Source: Synergistetes bacterium ADurb.Bin155 (GTDB taxonomy: Bacteria > Synergistota > Synergistia > Synergistales > Thermovirgaceae). Taken from it: DNA of 37,633 nucleotides. Under the pieces are notes generated by a model. That model searched no databases. It saw only the letters and a list, made by a program, of their open reading frames with translations, and had not been told where the DNA came from. This document shows, piece by piece, positions 18,317 through 26,918 of the stretch. The position numbers were made by a program, and so were the translations under genes. The stretch's first letter is position 1. The number at the start of each line of letters is the position of its first letter. The stretch is taken from positions 1 to 37,633 of the forward strand of contig MWDE01000019.1 in assembly GCA_002070395.1 (NCBI GenBank). The letters are read 5' to 3'.

Positions 18317-19588
18317 CTAGAGGAATATCCCGCGGAGCCTTGCCGCTTCGGCTACCCGTGCGATGGCGGCCATGAAGGCGGCACGGCGCATCTTCACGTG
18401 GCGTTCCTGGCTGAAGTCCCATACCCGCTTGAAGTTACCCTTCATGATATGGAGAAGCCTCGAGTTGTACTCCTCCCGGGTCCAGAAAAATCCGCCGAGG
18501 TTCTGCGCCCACTCGAAGTAGGACCCTATGACCCCGCCGGAATTAGCCAGGAAATCGGGAACGATCAGTACTCCCTTGGCATCGAGGATCGCGTCGGCAT
18601 CAGGGGTGATGGGGCCGTTGGCGGCTTCGACGATGTACTTGACCTTGACCTTGTCGGCGTTGTCCTTGTTGACCACGCCCTCGAGGGCCGCGGGGATGAG
18701 GATGTCGGCTTCGAGCAAGAGGAGTTCTTCAGCGGGGATCTTTTCGAGTCCGGGCTGCTCGAAACCCTCGAGAAGCTTTTTGGGGTGGGCGGAGGCATGC
18801 TGCTGGGCTTTCTTGATGTCAATGCCCTTGGGGCAATAGTAAGCTCCGGTGATATCGCTGATGCCGACCACCGTCGCGCCGGCGTTGACAAGCGTCAGGG
18901 CGGCGTGGGTTCCGACGTTGCCAAACCCCTGGATGACGAAGGTCGTACCCTTGGGGTCCTTTTTGATGGCCTTGAGGAACTCAAGAGCGCAGGTGGCAAC
19001 ACCCAGGCCGGTCGCCTCGACGCGGCCCTCGGAACCCCACAGTCCCACCGGTTTCCCGGTGAAGAGGGCGGGTTCGACCTTGCCCCTTATCTTGCTGATC
19101 GTGTCCATGAACCATATCATCTCCTGGCCGCCGGTGTTCACATCCGGGCCGGGAGCGTCGATCCAAGTTCCGATCAGCGGCTCTATCCTGGCGGCGTAGG
19201 TCCTCGAGAGACGTTCCTTTTCACCCTTTGACATCTGGAGCGGGTCGCACTCTACCCCACCCTTACCTCCCCCATAGGGTATGCCGGCGAGGGAACACTT
19301 CCAGGTCATGAGCATGCCCAGGGCTTCGCATTCATCAAGGTTCACATCGGGGTGGAATCTGGTGCCGCCCTTGGCCGGCCCGATAGCCGTGGAATGCTGG
19401 ATACGGTAGCCGTTAAAGACCTTGGTGGTTCCGTCGTCCATCACGACGGGGACCGAAACGGACAATTTCCGCTCGGAGTTGCCGAGTATCTCGACCAGGC
19501 TGTCTTCGAGACCCAGTTCCTCTGCCGCGCCATAGAAGTTTTTCAAAGCGATATTAAGGAGCACGTTCTCTGAAGTCCTCTTACCCAT
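18317..19588 (-). CDS. gdhA: Glu/Leu/Phe/Val dehydrogenase family glutamate dehydrogenase
   Basis: 423 residues, the size of the small hexameric GDH family. The enzyme interconverts glutamate with 2-oxoglutarate plus ammonium, a central step in amino-acid fermentation. Motifs: GPAKGGTRFHP, the catalytic Lys in GIPYGGGKGGV, DAPGPDVNT, and the Rossmann motif VIQGFGNVGTHAA (about residue 220). The cofactor cannot be fixed with certainty by eye. It has its own strong promoter (19707-19734), a leader of about 110 bases and an intrinsic terminator, so it is a monocistronic unit. Ribosome site GGAGGTGC lies 7-8 bases before the ATG. Confidence 0.95.
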   Translation of the reverse strand: MGKRTSENVLLNIALKNFYGAAEELGLEDSLVEILGNSERKLSVSVPVVMDDGTTKVFNGYRIQHSTAIGPAKGGTRFHPDVNLDECEALGMLMTWKCSLAGIPYGGGKGGVECDPLQMSKGEKERLSRTYAARIEPLIGTWIDAPGPDVNTGGQEMIWFMDTISKIRGKVEPALFTGKPVGLWGSEGRVEATGLGVATCALEFLKAIKKDPKGTTFVIQGFGNVGTHAALTLVNAGATVVGISDITGAYYCPKGIDIKKAQQHASAHPKKLLEGFEQPGLEKIPAEELLLLEADILIPAALEGVVNKDNADKVKVKYIVEAANGPITPDADAILDAKGVLIVPDFLANSGGVIGSYFEWAQNLGGFFWTREEYNSRLLHIMKGNFKRVWDFSQERHVKMRRAAFMAAIARVAEAARLRGIFL

Positions 19589-19734: not shown

Positions 19735-19791
19735 GGGGCCGGTATTATGTATACTCCATAATATTCCATCCACTTCACTCCTTCGCTGGAT

Positions 19792-19825
19792 AAAAAAACA
19801 GGGCTTGGGGAAACCCCTTGCCCTG
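19792..19825 (-). terminator. Intrinsic terminator downstream of the candidate selenoprotein gene
   Basis: On the minus strand CAGGGC-AA-GGGG pairs with CCCC-AA-GCCCTG around a TTT loop (19825-19799), with two A-A mismatches, followed by seven U (19798-19792). It closes the transcript that includes the small gene at 19899-20213 and separates it from the gdhA promoter. A genuine terminator here argues that the stretch between rluC-like and gdhA is a transcribed gene, not filler. Confidence 0.88.
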
Positions 19826-19898
19826 TGACACGGAACTAAATTTCATGGATGGCCGTCCTAAAATACGGGGGCTTCGGCCGGGAGTTCACCTTTGGTCT

Positions 19899-20213
19899 TC
19901 AGCAGGATCCCCTTTGAATGCCAAGGACGGTCATCACTTCGATATTCGTGGACCATAGGAACCCGGTCTGCTCGACCCTGACCAGGTCATCGGCAAATCT
20001 CATCTCTTCCGGGACCCATAGAGTGATACCATCCCCGGAAAGCATGGTGTAGCCGTTATCCACGGAGGGTTTTCCGCTCTCGACGAGAGCCGCGTAACGC
20101 GCCGATCACCCTCCACCGAGGCGTCTTACGATGACGTAACCCTCGTTGCCCATCGATCCCAGTTTAGCCTTGGCCTTGTCGCTGATCTCTAGTTTCAGCT
20201 TCCCCTCAGTCAT
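19899..20213 (-). CDS. Candidate HesB/IscA-like selenoprotein with in-frame UGA (Sec36)
   Basis: From the ATG at 20213 the frame has 35 codons, TGA (20108-20106), then 68 more codons to a TGA stop at 19901-19899; 104 residues if the first TGA is selenocysteine. The N-terminus (KLKLEISDKAKAKL, then GYVIVRRLGGG-U) resembles HesB/IscA-type proteins, in which a Cys follows Gly-Gly, and what I recall as the CC/Se motif (seleno)protein family. The part after the UGA (ARYAALVESGKPSV, ITLWVPEEM, TGFLWS) continues as a beta-rich domain without a break. Ribosome site GGGGGG lies seven bases upstream; an in-frame ATG at 20228 with AGGAG is an alternative. It is last in the operon after the pseudouridine synthase gene. 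A -1 frame tail to 19858 is open. Decay into a pseudogene is the main alternative. Confidence 0.65.
20064..20114 (-). promoter_or_regulatory. SECIS-like nested hairpin spanning the in-frame UGA
   Basis: In the minus-strand mRNA, GGAGGG just before the UGA (20114-20109) can pair perfectly with CCCUCC (20069-20064). Inside it, a perfect 6-bp stem GCUCUC/GAGAGC (20090-20076) is capped by the loop GUC, and a small CGCG/CGCG pair lies between. The loop G is about 22 bases past the UGA. Bacterial SECIS elements have the UGA near the stem base and a G at the start of a small apical loop roughly 16-37 bases downstream, which this matches. Confidence 0.6.
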
Positions 20214-20257
20214 ACCCATTCCCCCCATAGAGGTTTTTCTCCTGAACAACGTGGTCA

Positions 20258-21217
20258 TTATACCCCACGGTTGTATAAACGCCAACCCCTACTAGAAAGG
20301 ATCCCCATAAAGTCGGGAGGGGGAAGGGCTAAAAACTTTTTCCCAGAAAGGTGACCAAGGGGGGCGGACAGGTCCCTGAACTCCAGGCTCCTGGAGTGGA
20401 GCATCGGCCTATGAACGCCTAGGAGACGCCATTCGGCGTTCACCTTACGGTCACCGTACTTGATGTCGCCTACCAGGGGGTGCCCTATGGAGGCGAGGTG
20501 GACCCTCGCCTGGTGAGGCCGCCCGGTAAGAAGCTCCACCTGCAGCAGGGAAACCACCGAGTCCCCCGTTACCTTCCTGAACCTTGTAAGGGCCGTCCTT
20601 CCCCTGGCGGCGTCAATGCCCACAATGTTGTCTTCTCCGGTCTTCAATAGGGGCGAATCGATCTCAAGCTCATTTGGGGCTTCACCGACAACCAGGGCGA
20701 GGTAGGTCTTCAGGACGTTTCCCTTCCGCCAAGCCTCATGAAGCACTCTGAGAGCCACGCCGTTAAGGGCAAGAGCCATAGCCCCCGAGGTATTCCTGTC
20801 GAGCCTGTGCACCGGTGTGGGAAAGAAGGAGGGGTCCTTCCAGCCTAGGGTCGCCGTTGTCCTGGAGATGACACTCTCGCCGCCGTCACGATCGGGTTGT
20901 GAAAGCAGGTTCCAAGGTTTATTGATCAGACAGACATCGTTGTCAGCATAAATGATCTCTATTGAAGGGCTGGGTGCTCCAGGGCCCGAAAAGGAGGGCT
21001 TCCTGGCCTCAGCTTCGGCATCATCCCAGGGGACAGCCACCGCGCTTCCAGCGGCGACCCTGGAGGAACATTCGACCCGGCGGCCGTCCACCTTGACCAA
21101 ACCTTTCCTGAAGGCTCGCATAACTGCCGCCAGGGGAAGATCGGGCCACTTCTTCCGTATTACCTTGTCCACCCTTCTCCCATCGTCATGGGCTGAAACC
21201 TTGAAAACCTGTCCCAT
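20258..21217 (-). CDS. RluA-family 23S rRNA pseudouridine synthase (RluC/RluD-like)
   Basis: 319 residues: an N-terminal S4-like domain (about 10-75, DGRRVDKVIRKKWPDL) and a catalytic RluA domain with the signature HRLDRNTSG that carries the catalytic Asp (about residue 145), followed by GRPHQARVHLASIGHPLVGD. These enzymes isomerise specific uridines in 23S rRNA; the exact target cannot be told. It starts five bases after the HD-domain gene and is followed after 44 bases by the candidate selenoprotein gene, so the three probably share a transcript. Confidence 0.93.
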   Translation of the reverse strand: MGQVFKVSAHDDGRRVDKVIRKKWPDLPLAAVMRAFRKGLVKVDGRRVECSSRVAAGSAVAVPWDDAEAEARKPSFSGPGAPSPSIEIIYADNDVCLINKPWNLLSQPDRDGGESVISRTTATLGWKDPSFFPTPVHRLDRNTSGAMALALNGVALRVLHEAWRKGNVLKTYLALVVGEAPNELEIDSPLLKTGEDNIVGIDAARGRTALTRFRKVTGDSVVSLLQVELLTGRPHQARVHLASIGHPLVGDIKYGDRKVNAEWRLLGVHRPMLHSRSLEFRDLSAPLGHLSGKKFLALPPPDFMGILSSRGWRLYNRGV

Positions 21218-21222
21218 CCCGT

Positions 21223-22254
21223 TCAGTCCTCCACCTTTCGTGTGTCCGGCCTCCAGAACCTCCTGCCGGCGGAGGGGAGGAAGTCCGAGATGGAGACCTC
21301 CCCGTTGCCGCTTTCGGGAAAGGATCCCCAGCAGTACATGAGGAAGTCCAGTTCGTCGGCCGATGAAACTACCATGGCCTCGGGGGTCGCCGGAAGCACA
21401 GGCGAACCATACTCCTTGCGCCCATGGTGGCTCACCAGGATATGCCCCAGGGCGGTCTCTAGAGCCTCATCGAGGCTGTGTTCACCGGCCAGGAGGGAGA
21501 AGCGGCTGAAACCCAGCGCGATATGGTCGATGACCGTCCCCGGTAGGGTCATCGAAGGAAAGGGGTCAAGCCTGTAGGAATCGATCTTGCCGATGTCGTG
21601 CAAAAGCCCCCCTGCGGTCACGACATCCAGGTCCATGTCGATGCCCGAATCGATATAGGTTTGGGCAAGGGCGCGGGCGCCCTTCGTCACTGACAGGGTA
21701 TGCTCGATCAGCCCATGGACGTAGGCGTGATGCATGGTCACGGCCGCCGGAGCCTCCCGGAACTTCCTCCATGTATCACCCCTGAAGACCTTTTCTAGAA
21801 AATCCCTGACCGCGGGGCGGCAACCGGCGACCAGGGCCCTGAACTCCTCCTCCATTTGCTCGATGGGGATCGGTGAGGACTGGATGAAACCACTTATGGG
21901 GTATTTCTCGGGGTCCAGGAGGAACAGTTCCGAAAACTGGTACTGCTGCTTCCCCTTGAATTCCGACACGGTGCCGATGGCCCCGATGGGCGCGTTGAGG
22001 AAAACGCCGGGCATCTCCGGTGAACCGGGTTCAACGGGCGATCTTTCACCCGACCGGGCGTCCCACCATTTTCCATCGGACCAGACTTTCGCCTCGATGG
22101 TCCCCTCGGAATCCACCAGGGCGACTTCCCAGAAGGGCCTTTTATTCCTGTCAAACCTCTGCTTGACCTGTTGGAGCACGCCGAGGATCTTGAATCGATC
22201 GCCGGAAGCCAGGCCCCTCAGCTGGGATGTAGTTGAGTTCATCATGTCGGACAA
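21223..22254 (-). CDS. HD-domain 3'-5' exoribonuclease, YhaM-like
   Basis: 343 residues: an N-terminal OB-fold (about 10-125, FKILGVLQQVKQRF and ALVDSEGTIEAKVW) followed by an HD phosphohydrolase domain (about 165-305) with HAYVHGLIEHTLSV and GLLHDIGKIDSY. This is the layout of YhaM/CBF1, a 3'-5' exoribonuclease in RNA turnover. The length is slightly above that of YhaM. Start: TTG at 22254 with GGAGG seven bases upstream; the later ATG pair lacks a good site. A 95-base gap separates it from apgM and contains a 6-bp GGAGCG hairpin (22295-22310) with no U-run. Confidence 0.88.
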   Translation of the reverse strand: MSDMMNSTTSQLRGLASGDRFKILGVLQQVKQRFDRNKRPFWEVALVDSEGTIEAKVWSDGKWWDARSGERSPVEPGSPEMPGVFLNAPIGAIGTVSEFKGKQQYQFSELFLLDPEKYPISGFIQSSPIPIEQMEEEFRALVAGCRPAVRDFLEKVFRGDTWRKFREAPAAVTMHHAYVHGLIEHTLSVTKGARALAQTYIDSGIDMDLDVVTAGGLLHDIGKIDSYRLDPFPSMTLPGTVIDHIALGFSRFSLLAGEHSLDEALETALGHILVSHHGRKEYGSPVLPATPEAMVVSSADELDFLMYCWGSFPESGNGEVSISDFLPSAGRRFWRPDTRKVED

Positions 22255-22349: not shown

Positions 22350-23561
22350 TCAAGCCCCGTATTTGGAAAGCCTTCGGGCATGGGCCAGCATCAACCCCAT
22401 GAGCTTATAGGCCGGCATGATCCCAAGGCTTCCTCTGGCGCAACTTCTCTCGCCGAAGGAGGGCGACCCGTCGGACCTCACAAAGGGGCTCGCCAGGAGA
22501 AAGGGCGAGGGGTGCCATGAGTGGGAAGCCATGACGCTCGGGGTGCTGTGGTCGCCGGTCACGACGAGGACATCGGGTTCCAGCTCAAGCACCTCCGGCA
22601 CGAGGCTGTCGACTTTTTCGATGACCTCACGTTTCGCGTCGAAGTCACCGTCCTCGCCGCGGCTGTCGGCGTATTTTACATGAACGTAAAAGAAATCGAA
22701 AGCCGCCCAGTTCGTCCCTAAGGCCTGGAAGAGGCCTTCCACCGTCTTGCCCACCGGCAAGACCTCCATCCCCACTATCCTGGCCAGGCCTTTGTACATG
22801 GGGTAGGTGGCTATCGCTGCGGGGCGGAACCGGTAGAGGTCAGGCATGAGGGGGATGTCCGGCGCTCCGGATATGCCCCTTAGAAGGCAGCCGTTGGCTT
22901 TCGGCTCATCGGAAAGGACCTCCCGGACCTTTCGGATGAGATCGTTGACCAGGCGGGACGTCCTTTCGGCGGAAGGGTCCAGGGGTTCGCTCCAGATCAT
23001 GGGCCGGCCTTCGACCTGGGGATCCGCGTCGGTCACCTTGTCGCTCAACCCCTCCCCCGAGAAGACCACGGCGAAACGGTGCTCGACACCGGGGTAGAAT
23101 CTAACACCGAATCCATCGATCGCTTTTATCCTTTCGGCCAGTTTCCCGATGATCCCGGCGCTCGAACCGGTGTTGATCCGACCGGCCCTCCGATCGAGGA
23201 CCAGGTCCTTCTCACCCCAGGTGCAAAGGTTCCCCCTGGCACAGAGCTCCCCGGCCTGGACATGGGCCCCCGTGCCCAGGGCCTCCAGTATCCCCCTGCC
23301 GATCTGGAACCTCAGAGGATCGTAGCCGAAAAGGCCGAGGTGCCCTGGCCCGCTTCCCGGGGTGACGCCCGTATCGACCATTTCGAGAAGTCCCAACTCC
23401 GAACGGGAAGCCAGGGCATCGAGGTTGGGCGTGAAGGCAGCCTCCAGTTCCGTTTGACCCCCGGTCCCCGGCAACCCCCCCAGGCCATCCATCACGAGAA
23501 GTACTATTTTTGTTCTGTTTTCGACCGACAGTTCCTTGAGGATCTCCAGCCTGTCGAGCAA
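22350..23561 (-). CDS. apgM: 2,3-bisphosphoglycerate-independent phosphoglycerate mutase, archaeal type
   Basis: 403 residues. ApgM interconverts 3- and 2-phosphoglycerate and belongs to the alkaline-phosphatase superfamily. Motifs: VLLVMDGLGGLPG (metal-binding Asp), AAFTPNLDALA, the catalytic Ser in TPGSGPGHLGLFGYDP, and VVTGDHSTPSVMASHSWHPSP near the C-terminus. It begins with TTG at 23561, with GGAGG eight bases upstream; the nearer ATG is out of frame. Archaeal-type PGAM is common in Synergistota and some Clostridia. It is divergent from the M48 peptidase gene and leads the run to the YhaM-like gene. Confidence 0.94.
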   Translation of the reverse strand: MLDRLEILKELSVENRTKIVLLVMDGLGGLPGTGGQTELEAAFTPNLDALASRSELGLLEMVDTGVTPGSGPGHLGLFGYDPLRFQIGRGILEALGTGAHVQAGELCARGNLCTWGEKDLVLDRRAGRINTGSSAGIIGKLAERIKAIDGFGVRFYPGVEHRFAVVFSGEGLSDKVTDADPQVEGRPMIWSEPLDPSAERTSRLVNDLIRKVREVLSDEPKANGCLLRGISGAPDIPLMPDLYRFRPAAIATYPMYKGLARIVGMEVLPVGKTVEGLFQALGTNWAAFDFFYVHVKYADSRGEDGDFDAKREVIEKVDSLVPEVLELEPDVLVVTGDHSTPSVMASHSWHPSPFLLASPFVRSDGSPSFGERSCARGSLGIMPAYKLMGLMLAHARRLSKYGA

Positions 23562-24453: not shown

Positions 24454-25673
24454 CTCGACGGCCTTTTCAGCACAGCGGCAAAGAAAATCAAACCCTCCCC
24501 TCTCCTGGAGCTGCTGGACCTCGGCAAAAAACCGGGGGTGATCTCCTTCGCGGTGGGTATGCCCGACCCCGACATCTTCCCCATTGAGCAGTTGCAAAAA
24601 GCCGCTTCCGTCATCTCAAGAGAGGGCAAGGATATTCTGCAGTACGGCGCGGCGGGGGGTACCCGCCGCTCAAGGGTTTCCTGGCCGAATGGACCGCCCC
24701 GAGGATGGGACGGAAACTGTCAACCAGCGAACTGCTGATCACCGCCGGCTCCGCCCAGGTGATTGACCTGCTTTGCTGGGCCCTGCTGGACAGGGGCGAC
24801 TGGGTGATCTGCGAGGAACCCACCTTCCAGGGTGCGACGGGCACCATGTTCAACCACGGCGCCAGGTTCCTGACTGTCCCTTGCGACGGTGAGGGGATGA
24901 AGGTGGAACTGCTCCCGGAGCGGATCGAAAGAATCCGGGCCGCCGGTGAACCCATCAAGTTCATCTATACCATCGTCAACTTCCACAACCCGCTGGGCTG
25001 TGACCTCTCACTCCAGAGAAGGGCAAGGTTGCTGGAGATCGCCAGGACCTACGGGATCCTGATCCTTGAGGATGACCCCTACGGCTGGGTCCGCTTCGAG
25101 GGTGAGGATATCCCCTCGCTGTTCTCCATGGACGACAGCGGCCTGGTGGTATTCTCATCGACCTTCTCCAAGATCCTGGCCCCCGGCACCCGCGTCGCAT
25201 GGTGCGCGGGGAGGGACGAGATCATCAGGAAAATGACGGTGCTTAAGGAAAATGTCGATACCTGCACCAGTGTCCTGGCCCAGGCCATAGTATGGGAGTA
25301 CTGCCGGTTGGGCTACCTCGACGCCTTTCTCCCCCGCATAATCGATCACTACAGGAAAAAGAGGGACGGCATGGAAACCGCCCTGAAAAAGCACCTGTCC
25401 CCGGACAGGGTGTCCTGGCAAAAACCCGGAGGCGGCTTCTTTTACTGGTTGACGGTCCCGGAGATACCGGCCGTGCAACTCCTGGAAAAAGCCCTGGAGA
25501 AAAAGGTCGCCTTCGTCCCGGGGAACGCCTTTTACCCCACCGGGTCGGGGGGACTCAACAATTTCAGGATGTGCTTTACCTTCGCCTCCACCGAAATGAC
25601 GGACCTCGGTGTCCGATACATCGGTGAAGCCATCCGCGAGTTCGAGCAAGAGCCTGGCCATAAGAAGAGCTGA
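24454..25673 (+). pseudogene. PLP-dependent class I aminotransferase, start codon lost and frameshifted
   Basis: Close paralogue of the intact gene just downstream. Homology begins near 24454 (LDGLFSTAAKKIKPSPLLEL), after a good GGAGG (24444-24448), but there is no ATG, GTG or TTG in frame between an upstream TAA at 24382 and the GTG at 24538. The frame runs to QYGAAGG and then shifts by one base in a run of six G (24654-24659); from there the second frame (PPLKGFLAEWTAPRMG) continues to the stop at 25673. The PLP Lys is kept in TFSKILAPGTR. One more G would restore the frame, so a sequencing indel is possible, but the missing start speaks for real decay. Confidence 0.8.
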
Positions 25674-25703
25674 GACATCTGATCCATATTGGAGGAGATC
25701 GAA

Positions 25704-26918
25704 TTGGACAAGTTCTGGGGATCGAATTTCAGCAACAAGGCGCTTAAGGTTCGTCCCTCGCCGATACGGGAGATGTTGAGCGTAGTGAACCAACCGGGAA
25801 TGATATCCTTCGCGGGCGGGATGCCTGCACCCGATGTCTTCCCGGTGAAGGAGTTTCACGAGGGGACCGAGGTCTTCCTGCGGGACGGTCCGAGTCTCCT
25901 CCAGTACGGCACCACCGAGGGTTTCACTCCCTTGAAAGAGTACCTCTCGGAGTGGACGGCGCCCAGGATGGGCAGAAAGGCCGCCCTGGACGAAATGCTC
26001 CTCACCTCGGGTTCGCAGCAGGTGCTCGACCTGATGGGTTGGGCCATGATCGACCCCGGTGACTACGTCATCACCGAGGATCCTTCCTACCTGGCGGCCC
26101 TCACGGCTTTCCACAACCACGGCTCCCGTTTCATCGGCATCCCCACCGACGCCGAGGGGATGGTCGTGGATATGCTCCCGGAGAAAATCGAGAAGGCCCG
26201 CTCCGAGGGCAAGAAGGTCAAGTTCATTTATACGATCGTCAACTTCCAGAACCCCGCGGGATGCACCCTGTCCCTTGAGAGAAGAAAAAAACTGGTGGAG
26301 ATCTCCAACAAGTACGGGGTCCCCATCTTTGAGGATGACCCTTACGGTTACGTCCGTTTTGACGGTGACCACCTTCCTTCCATTTTCTCCCTTGACCAGG
26401 AGGGGGGCGTCATCTACGCCGGCTCCTTCTCGAAGATCCTTGCCCCGGGGACCAGGATCGGGTGGTGCACCGGCAGCCGTGACATAATAAGGAAACTGAC
26501 CGTCTTCAAGCAGTCCACGGACCTCTGCTCGAGCCCCATCTCCCAGGCGCTGATCTACGAGTACTGCAAGAAAGGCTACCTGGACGCTCACCTTCCGAAG
26601 ATCGTCGCCGATTACAGGGCCAAAAGAGACGCCATGGAGGACAGTTTCAAGAAGTACCTGCCCCTCGATGAGGTCTCCTGGGTCAAACCGGAAGGTGGTT
26701 TCTTCTACTGGATCCACATGCCCCACATCGATGCCGAGGACCTTTTCAAGAAGGCCATCGAGAAGAAGGTCGCCTTCGTCATCGGCGCCCCCTTCTTCGC
26801 CAACGGCGGCGGGGAGCACAACGCGAGGATCAACTACACCTACTCCACGCCAGATACCATTGAAGAGGGGGTCAAACGCCTCGGGGAAGCCATGAGGGAA
26901 ATGCTCGGGAAAGCCTGA
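25704..26918 (+). CDS. PLP-dependent class I aminotransferase (2-aminoadipate/multi-substrate type)
   Basis: 404 residues from the TTG at 25704, which has GGAGGAG about six bases upstream; the TTG at 25689 overlaps that ribosome site. It belongs to the fold-type I family that includes LysN-like 2-aminoadipate and aromatic aminotransferases. Motifs: PSLLQYGTTEGFTPLKEYL, TSGSQQVLDL, NFQNPAGCTLS, EDDPYGYVRF with the ring Asp, and the Schiff-base Lys in SFSKILAPGTRIGW. It probably transaminates amino acids for fermentation, a role suited to an amino-acid user. It follows its damaged paralogue and runs into mnmE with two bases between. Confidence 0.92.
   Translation: MDKFWGSNFSNKALKVRPSPIREMLSVVNQPGMISFAGGMPAPDVFPVKEFHEGTEVFLRDGPSLLQYGTTEGFTPLKEYLSEWTAPRMGRKAALDEMLLTSGSQQVLDLMGWAMIDPGDYVITEDPSYLAALTAFHNHGSRFIGIPTDAEGMVVDMLPEKIEKARSEGKKVKFIYTIVNFQNPAGCTLSLERRKKLVEISNKYGVPIFEDDPYGYVRFDGDHLPSIFSLDQEGGVIYAGSFSKILAPGTRIGWCTGSRDIIRKLTVFKQSTDLCSSPISQALIYEYCKKGYLDAHLPKIVADYRAKRDAMEDSFKKYLPLDEVSWVKPEGGFFYWIHMPHIDAEDLFKKAIEKKVAFVIGAPFFANGGGEHNARINYTYSTPDTIEEGVKRLGEAMREMLGKA

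Follow-up and report, generated by a model that had tools for sequence, protein, structure and literature searches.

A very likely selenoprotein gene with a predicted A-type (IscA/SufA) fold in Synergistota

A 37,633-nt contig of Synergistetes bacterium ADurb.Bin155 (MWDE01000019.1; hereafter the window) very likely carries a selenoprotein gene, judging from its sequence, in which a minus-strand frame runs through one in-frame TGA to encode 104 residues with selenocysteine (Sec) at position 36. We make this assignment because the TGA is conserved, coding constraint continues past it, the genome has Sec machinery, and the family shows an excess of hairpins resembling the bacterial selenocysteine insertion sequence (bSECIS). 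The protein is predicted to adopt the fold of A-type iron-sulfur (Fe-S) carriers. As the most economical reading, we propose that it does, or did, the work of such a carrier with a selenolate as ligand. The window is contig 19 of a genome in 80 contigs (87.9% complete).

The initial annotation of this gene was exact in coordinates and frame. The reading frame starts at an ATG at 20213 and closes with a second TGA (19901-19899); translation might instead begin at 20228, where AGGAG precedes another ATG. The translated product reads MTEGKLKLEISDKAKAKLGSMGNEGYVIVRRLGGGU-SARYAALVESG from its start through the internal TGA and ends in IQRGSC. The TGA directly follows Leu-Gly-Gly-Gly, as had been claimed for the three Gly, and aligns with E. 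coli IscA Cys35. The noted shortage of long frames is equally real: without read-through, open reading frames (ORFs) of 59 and 54 aa are all that is left in that frame.

A profile search of 185 Synergistota genomes located the family at 108 places in 73 genomes, and 106 of these, in 72 genomes, were read (two in G073 were left out). The Sec column held TGA in 88 copies (Sec copies) spread over 58 of the 72 genomes, with Cys (10), Ser (4), Arg (2), Trp (1), or Gly (1) in the others. Cys also occupies this position in E. coli IscA, SufA, and ErpA (Cys35), and a divergent, secreted-looking branch accounts for 8 of the 10 Cys copies. The initial annotation had viewed homologues with neither Cys nor Sec at position 36 as grounds for rejection. 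Such homologues do exist, as 8 of the 106 copies, confined to two genera, g20 (six copies) and g3 (two). A six-frame search of 61 genomes gave a match in 43, and the best place per genome contained one TGA in 38, two in 1, and none in 4.

Constraint on the protein continued beyond the TGA, which was present in all three same-genus genomes compared (77-86% identity). Between the source genome (G000) and G002, differences at codon positions 1, 2, and 3 numbered 6, 2, and 30 after the TGA and 3, 2, and 12 before it. The corresponding nonsynonymous and synonymous rates (dN/dS) were 0.066/1.63 and 0.059/1.16. Nine pairs were compared; dS was saturated in two, and dN was below dS downstream of the TGA in all seven computable pairs. 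Coding character therefore persists past the TGA under purifying selection, as the initial annotation had it.

The nearest named relatives, both Synergistota, are L039, from a Synergistales metagenome-assembled genome (MAG; 77% identity), and P0018, a C-terminal half from a Thermovirgaceae MAG (54 aa, 87% identity) annotated as a hypothetical protein. A scan of genome contigs found one locus. A plain protein search returned two relatives, both partial, and an alignment search returned 18 matches. Public entries also include P0003, the N-terminal half of a close relative (59 aa). The expectation that standard callers would drop both halves thus does not hold everywhere. Four of the 18 matches (P0004-P0007) have Trp at the Sec position, where the TGA was evidently translated as Trp.

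The source genome carries tRNA-Sec (77.5 bits; anticodon tca by ARAGORN), selA with selB next to it, and selD, so that every component of Sec machinery that the initial annotation had wanted sought (selA, selB, selC, and selD) is present. The selD gene itself (L087, G000:C7:63140-64069) contains one in-frame TGA, a feature of Sec-containing SelD proteins. Across the phylum, tRNA-Sec was found in 122 of 185 genomes: 52 of the 59 that carry a Sec copy, among which G073 is included from the profile search, versus 70 of the 126 others. Seven genomes with a Sec copy still gave no tRNA-Sec match at E <= 1e-9. One of them, G138 (one contig, 96% complete), has tandem copies of the gene, one with Sec and one with Cys (L120, G138:C1:2136704-2137454); here the Cys form may have taken over while the TGA form decays, a possible Sec-to-Cys swap caught midway.

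According to a 2026 review, a bSECIS has a loop of 3-9 nt with G in its first two positions, 4-16 bp, a distance of 16-37 nt from the UGA, and a minimum free energy of -7.5 or lower (PMC13188914). The window hairpin lies within this geometry (loop GUC, 6 bp, 21 nt), as do the hairpins of all 88 Sec copies, 50 of which reach the energy threshold bare. When the peptide was recoded at random with synonymous codons, the window hairpin proved more stable than the recodings at p = 0.04, and 35 of 86 distinct Sec copies had p < 0.05. Thinning to less than 85% identity left 70 Sec copies and 15 without Sec. Of the thinned Sec copies, 68 exceeded the mean stability of their recodings, and 29 did so individually at p < 0.05 (p = 3.7e-13 by Wilcoxon test); the loop started at 20 or 21 nt in 56. 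Among the copies without Sec, 10 of 15 were more stable, two of them reaching p < 0.05 individually (p = 0.076 by Wilcoxon test; 0.033 combined), a residual signal that may represent remnants; relatedness remains within both thinned sets, so that their p-values overstate the case. At the gene, Rfam returned no SECIS or other credible RNA, with three matches at chance level.

The selenoprotein claim of the initial annotation is thus supported by TGA conservation, by Cys at that position in the E. coli proteins and in 10 of the 106 family members read, by the SECIS-like hairpin, and by the Sec machinery. An ordinary stop, dividing two short genes or interrupting a decaying one, would fit the bare hairpin energy (-7.0 against the -7.5 threshold) and the 7 of 59 TGA-copy genomes without a tRNA-Sec match. 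We would be very surprised if this were so, given a TGA copy in 58 of 72 genomes, purifying selection past the TGA, the Sec machinery, the hairpin excess, and the Cys homologues.

The best and sole clear family match of the window protein was NF041239 (CC/Se motif family, Moor_selen_rel), spanning residues 7-93 with E = 1.8e-8. Forty-one of the 44 members of alignment A1 matched this model at E <= 0.01, and two of ten relatives scanned singly, L037 (45.7 bits) and L016 (44.9), exceeded its cut-off of 40 bits. The window protein stayed below it at 34.3 bits, such that its proposed kinship with the CC/Se family holds as proximity rather than as membership by score. It also differs in having Ser37 and not Cys beside Sec, and in a Cys tail outside the matched stretch. 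Table 1 of the 2026 review enters the CC/Se family as a hypothetical selenoprotein, predicted in Moorella, and the review gives its motif as CxxU (PMC13188914), whereas the window protein has GGGUS.

Structure comparison points to the A-type carriers IscA, SufA, and ErpA. IscA, SufA, and relatives of theirs were the best structure matches of the predicted model (Foldseek, VIA), well above unrelated rows; Foldseek matches beyond rank 10 were at chance level. A profile comparison also matched (E = 1.5e-5), and in the alignment Sec36 stands in the Cys35 column and the C-terminal Cys in the Cys101 column. Identity to the E. coli proteins is only 16-22%, Sec replaces Cys, and of the carrier ligands Cys35 and C99-G-C101 the middle Cys is absent from the window protein, while the relative L016 (the G006 copy) keeps C-G-C. 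The initial description as HesB/IscA-like therefore stands for fold and profile comparison but not for the established models. PF01521 did not match the window protein and reached at best 25.1 bits among 44 relatives (cut-off 26.3), and no HesB-type NCBIfam model matched the window protein up to E = 1, with the presence of TIGR01911 in the library unchecked.

Two further groups of A-type fold were compared. Like the window protein, HesB-like selenoproteins (TIGR01911; NF038090, IscA_HesB_Se) are small proteins of this fold with Sec. Their listed motif is UxGP (PMC13188914), in contrast to USAR in the window protein, and the best of ten relatives reached only 14.5 bits with NF038090, whose cut-off is 85. 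DsrR (PDB 2k4z) shares 5% identity. DsrR is a cluster-free IscA relative that lacks the cluster cysteines, whereas the window protein keeps Sec and Cys. A sequence-profile search of solved structures was discarded, its best match being a mitochondrial complex I subunit at E = 0.057, with nothing useful.

Our carrier proposal draws on the predicted A-type fold, the presence of IscU, and A-type genes not being found in the phylum. PF01521, which represents the usual A-type gene, gave no match in any of the 185 genomes at E <= 0.001 and was positive in 9 of 14 control genomes; this search would miss a very divergent A-type gene, as it misses the window family. In the source genome (88% complete), an IscU-type scaffold scored 170.6 bits, whereas SufB/D gave no match. 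A-type carriers are described as receiving clusters from IscU or SufBCD and passing them on (PMC2682760). In the proposed mechanism, SelB with Sec-tRNA would bind the hairpin, whose loop begins 21 nt past the UGA, and the internal UGA would be translated as Sec. Two protein copies would pair, as A-type proteins do, and would hold Fe or a [2Fe-2S] or [4Fe-4S] cluster through each partner's Sec36 and C-terminal Cys. The cluster would be taken from IscU and handed to client enzymes, filling a step for which no usual A-type gene was found in the phylum.

We tentatively prefer this selenolate carrier, with the UGA likely read as Sec and the selenolate replacing the first Cys ligand, at somewhat less than an even chance. 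Several observations weigh against it. The family occurs in only 73 of 185 genomes, and 59 genomes with tRNA-Sec have no family match. Some orthologues have lost Sec, some paralogues look secreted, and some family forms lack the Cys tail. Against Sec decoding in particular, the bare window hairpin (-7.0 kcal/mol) is slightly weaker than the -7.5 threshold, and the 47-nt stretch around it (-17.7, z -0.97) is no more stable than shuffles. Finally, both the carrier role and metal binding are predictions from sequence and fold.

Of the 106 copies, 52 have a pseudouridine synthase gene on the same strand no more than 400 nt upstream, which agrees with the operon position claimed initially; the number is conservative, as some copies with short flanks are missed. 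In these 52 copies the Sec column contained Sec (45), Ser (3), Arg (2), Cys (1), or Gly (1). The shared locus therefore marks one orthologous gene that extends across several families of the order and has lost Sec in a few lineages. The genus g20 orthologues L063, L066, L067, L129, L130, and L142 lie at this locus but have Ser, Arg, or Gly where the others have Sec; tRNA-Sec is present in these genomes, and Cys-rich tails are kept in all four orthologues read to the end.

Complete Sec copies at the locus (n = 44; L012, cut by a contig end, was left out) fell into distinct layouts. Thirty-six had a C-terminal Cys without an adjacent Cys, seven had Sec-Cys without a tail Cys, one had neither (L023), and none had both. 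In the 36, the residue after Sec is Ser, Ala, Gly, or Asn, and the tail Cys lies at least 64 residues past Sec. The Ser beside Sec, initially put forward as a novelty of this gene, is thus one form of a widespread pattern and not peculiar to the locus. Many tails hold two or three Cys (CxxC, CxxCxxC), and 26 of all 87 complete Sec copies have neither an adjacent nor a tail Cys. The two layouts excluded each other by Fisher test (p = 2e-7 at the locus, 1.4e-6 over the 87 copies). On the tree, however, the adjacent Cys changes only five times, giving at most five independent pairs, and the exclusion was not significant, so that we treat it as a hint and not as proof.

This layout bears on whether the protein binds metal at all. 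A thiol/selenol redox protein of A-type fold could form a selenenylsulfide between Sec36 and either the adjacent or the C-terminal Cys, which would account for a second thiol at one place or the other and for none of the 44 locus copies having both. Sec in secreted-looking paralogues would also fit, and a review considers most uncharacterized prokaryotic selenoproteins likely to be redox proteins (PMC13188914). However, the layout split tracks few branches of the tree, and tails with two or three Cys, such as CxxC and CxxCxxC, suit metal binding too. The A-type fold, moreover, is known for binding Fe and Fe-S clusters and not for dithiol chemistry. We rank the redox protein close behind the carrier, as a real possibility that we do not favor.

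Many copies away from the locus are paralogues with N-termini that by eye resemble signal peptides. The source genome has one such secreted-looking second Sec copy (L040, G000:C10:14000-22500; match G000:C10:18206-18475, minus strand). It reads MKKGYLVMAAFLAVAAFAAGHAAAA followed by the domain with LSSGUARV, and has a strong SECIS-like hairpin (-18.0 kcal/mol); its neighbors, on inspection, gave no usable functional clue. Secreted-looking paralogues and Cys-rich tails would also suit a protein that uses Sec and Cys to bind heavy metals or metalloids (Hg, As, or even selenium), be it to store them, deliver them, or defend against them, and several recent selenoprotein families are linked to mercury or arsenic handling with Sec as a possible ligand (PMC13188914). 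The steady neighbors, in contrast, are pseudouridine synthase, HD, and phosphoglycerate mutase-like genes, and no resistance or transport gene was recognized by eye at the locus, making a heavy-metal binder improbable.

Transcription signals surround the window gene (Table 1). Because a promoter-like site lies where the upstream gene ends, the window gene may also be transcribed independently. Among 51 distinct regions upstream of locus copies, 34 contain a similar site (3.9 expected from mononucleotide shuffles). The clean terminator of the initial annotation is real, with none of 200 shuffles forming an equally stable hairpin. The pseudouridine synthase and HD neighbors would themselves fit an RNA or translation role for an A-type-fold protein, like the one we assume for DsrR, with Sec as an accessory. 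Retention of Sec in 45 of 52 locus copies would then be costly, and the gene apparently has its own promoter; this explanation is less probable still than heavy-metal binding. Elsewhere in the window, a 16S rRNA fragment at the contig end (1-170, minus strand) was the sole Rfam match over the whole window, and two adjoining plus-strand ORFs (24705-25673 and 25689-26918) appear by eye to be paralogous pyridoxal phosphate aminotransferases.

Table 1. Features of the selenoprotein locus, in window coordinates.
Feature	Position	Strand	Remarks
Selenoprotein gene (very likely)	19899..20213	minus	104 residues; codon 36 likely Sec; predicted fold A-type (IscA/SufA)
In-frame TGA, codon 36	20106..20108	minus	likely Sec codon; aligned with Cys35 of E. 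coli IscA
SECIS-like hairpin GCTCTC-GTC-GAGAGC	20076..20090	minus	loop G 21 nt past TGA; bare -7.0 kcal/mol
Codon of C-terminal Cys104	19902..19904	minus	same alignment column as IscA Cys101
AGGAG ribosome-site-like stretch	20229..20244	minus	precedes alternative ATG at 20228
Promoter-like site TTGGCG-17-TATAAT	20257..20285	minus	overlaps stop codon of upstream gene
Intrinsic terminator, hairpin and T run	19791..19826	minus	-19.8 kcal/mol; ~70 nt past stop
Pseudouridine synthase gene (name from initial annotation)	20258..21217	minus	upstream; conserved neighbor of family
HD-domain, YhaM-like gene	21223..22254	minus	named by eye from translation; frequent second neighbor
Phosphoglycerate mutase-like gene	22350..23561	minus	named by eye; where flanks are long enough, some relatives have it upstream
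gdhA-like gene	18317..19588	minus	beyond terminator; neighbor in many, not all, relatives

Synergistetes are described as rich in selenoproteins (PMC5029168). For two Synergistota, the deep-Sep report counts 13 and 18 selenoprotein genes as known and none as new (PMC12013277); family members there may therefore already count as known. In the titles and abstract openings listed by our literature searches on selenoproteins, A-type carriers, and Synergistota, neither a Sec A-type carrier nor a lack of A-type genes in Synergistota was described; Haft 2023 and Haft 2025, which lie outside this comparison, may describe related families. What appears to be new is the Sec-plus-C-terminal-Cys layout and its shared locus.

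At its broadest, the proposal would have Synergistota swapping the ordinary A-type carrier for a selenium one, in which selenolate and C-terminal thiolate would hold a cluster on its way from IscU to clients, and secreted sisters would take selenolate metal chemistry to the envelope. We regard this full version as rather unlikely. The family itself, with 88 Sec copies, is a recurrent selenoprotein family that surfaces in public sets as halves or with Trp in place of Sec. Vinella and colleagues left unresolved how clusters are delivered in lineages without A-type carriers but with IscU or SufB/D, and suggested other proteins (PMC2682760). The window family offers a concrete selenocysteine candidate for this delivery in a phylum where no usual A-type gene was found, and with a single small protein as the candidate, the question of carrier-less delivery becomes testable.
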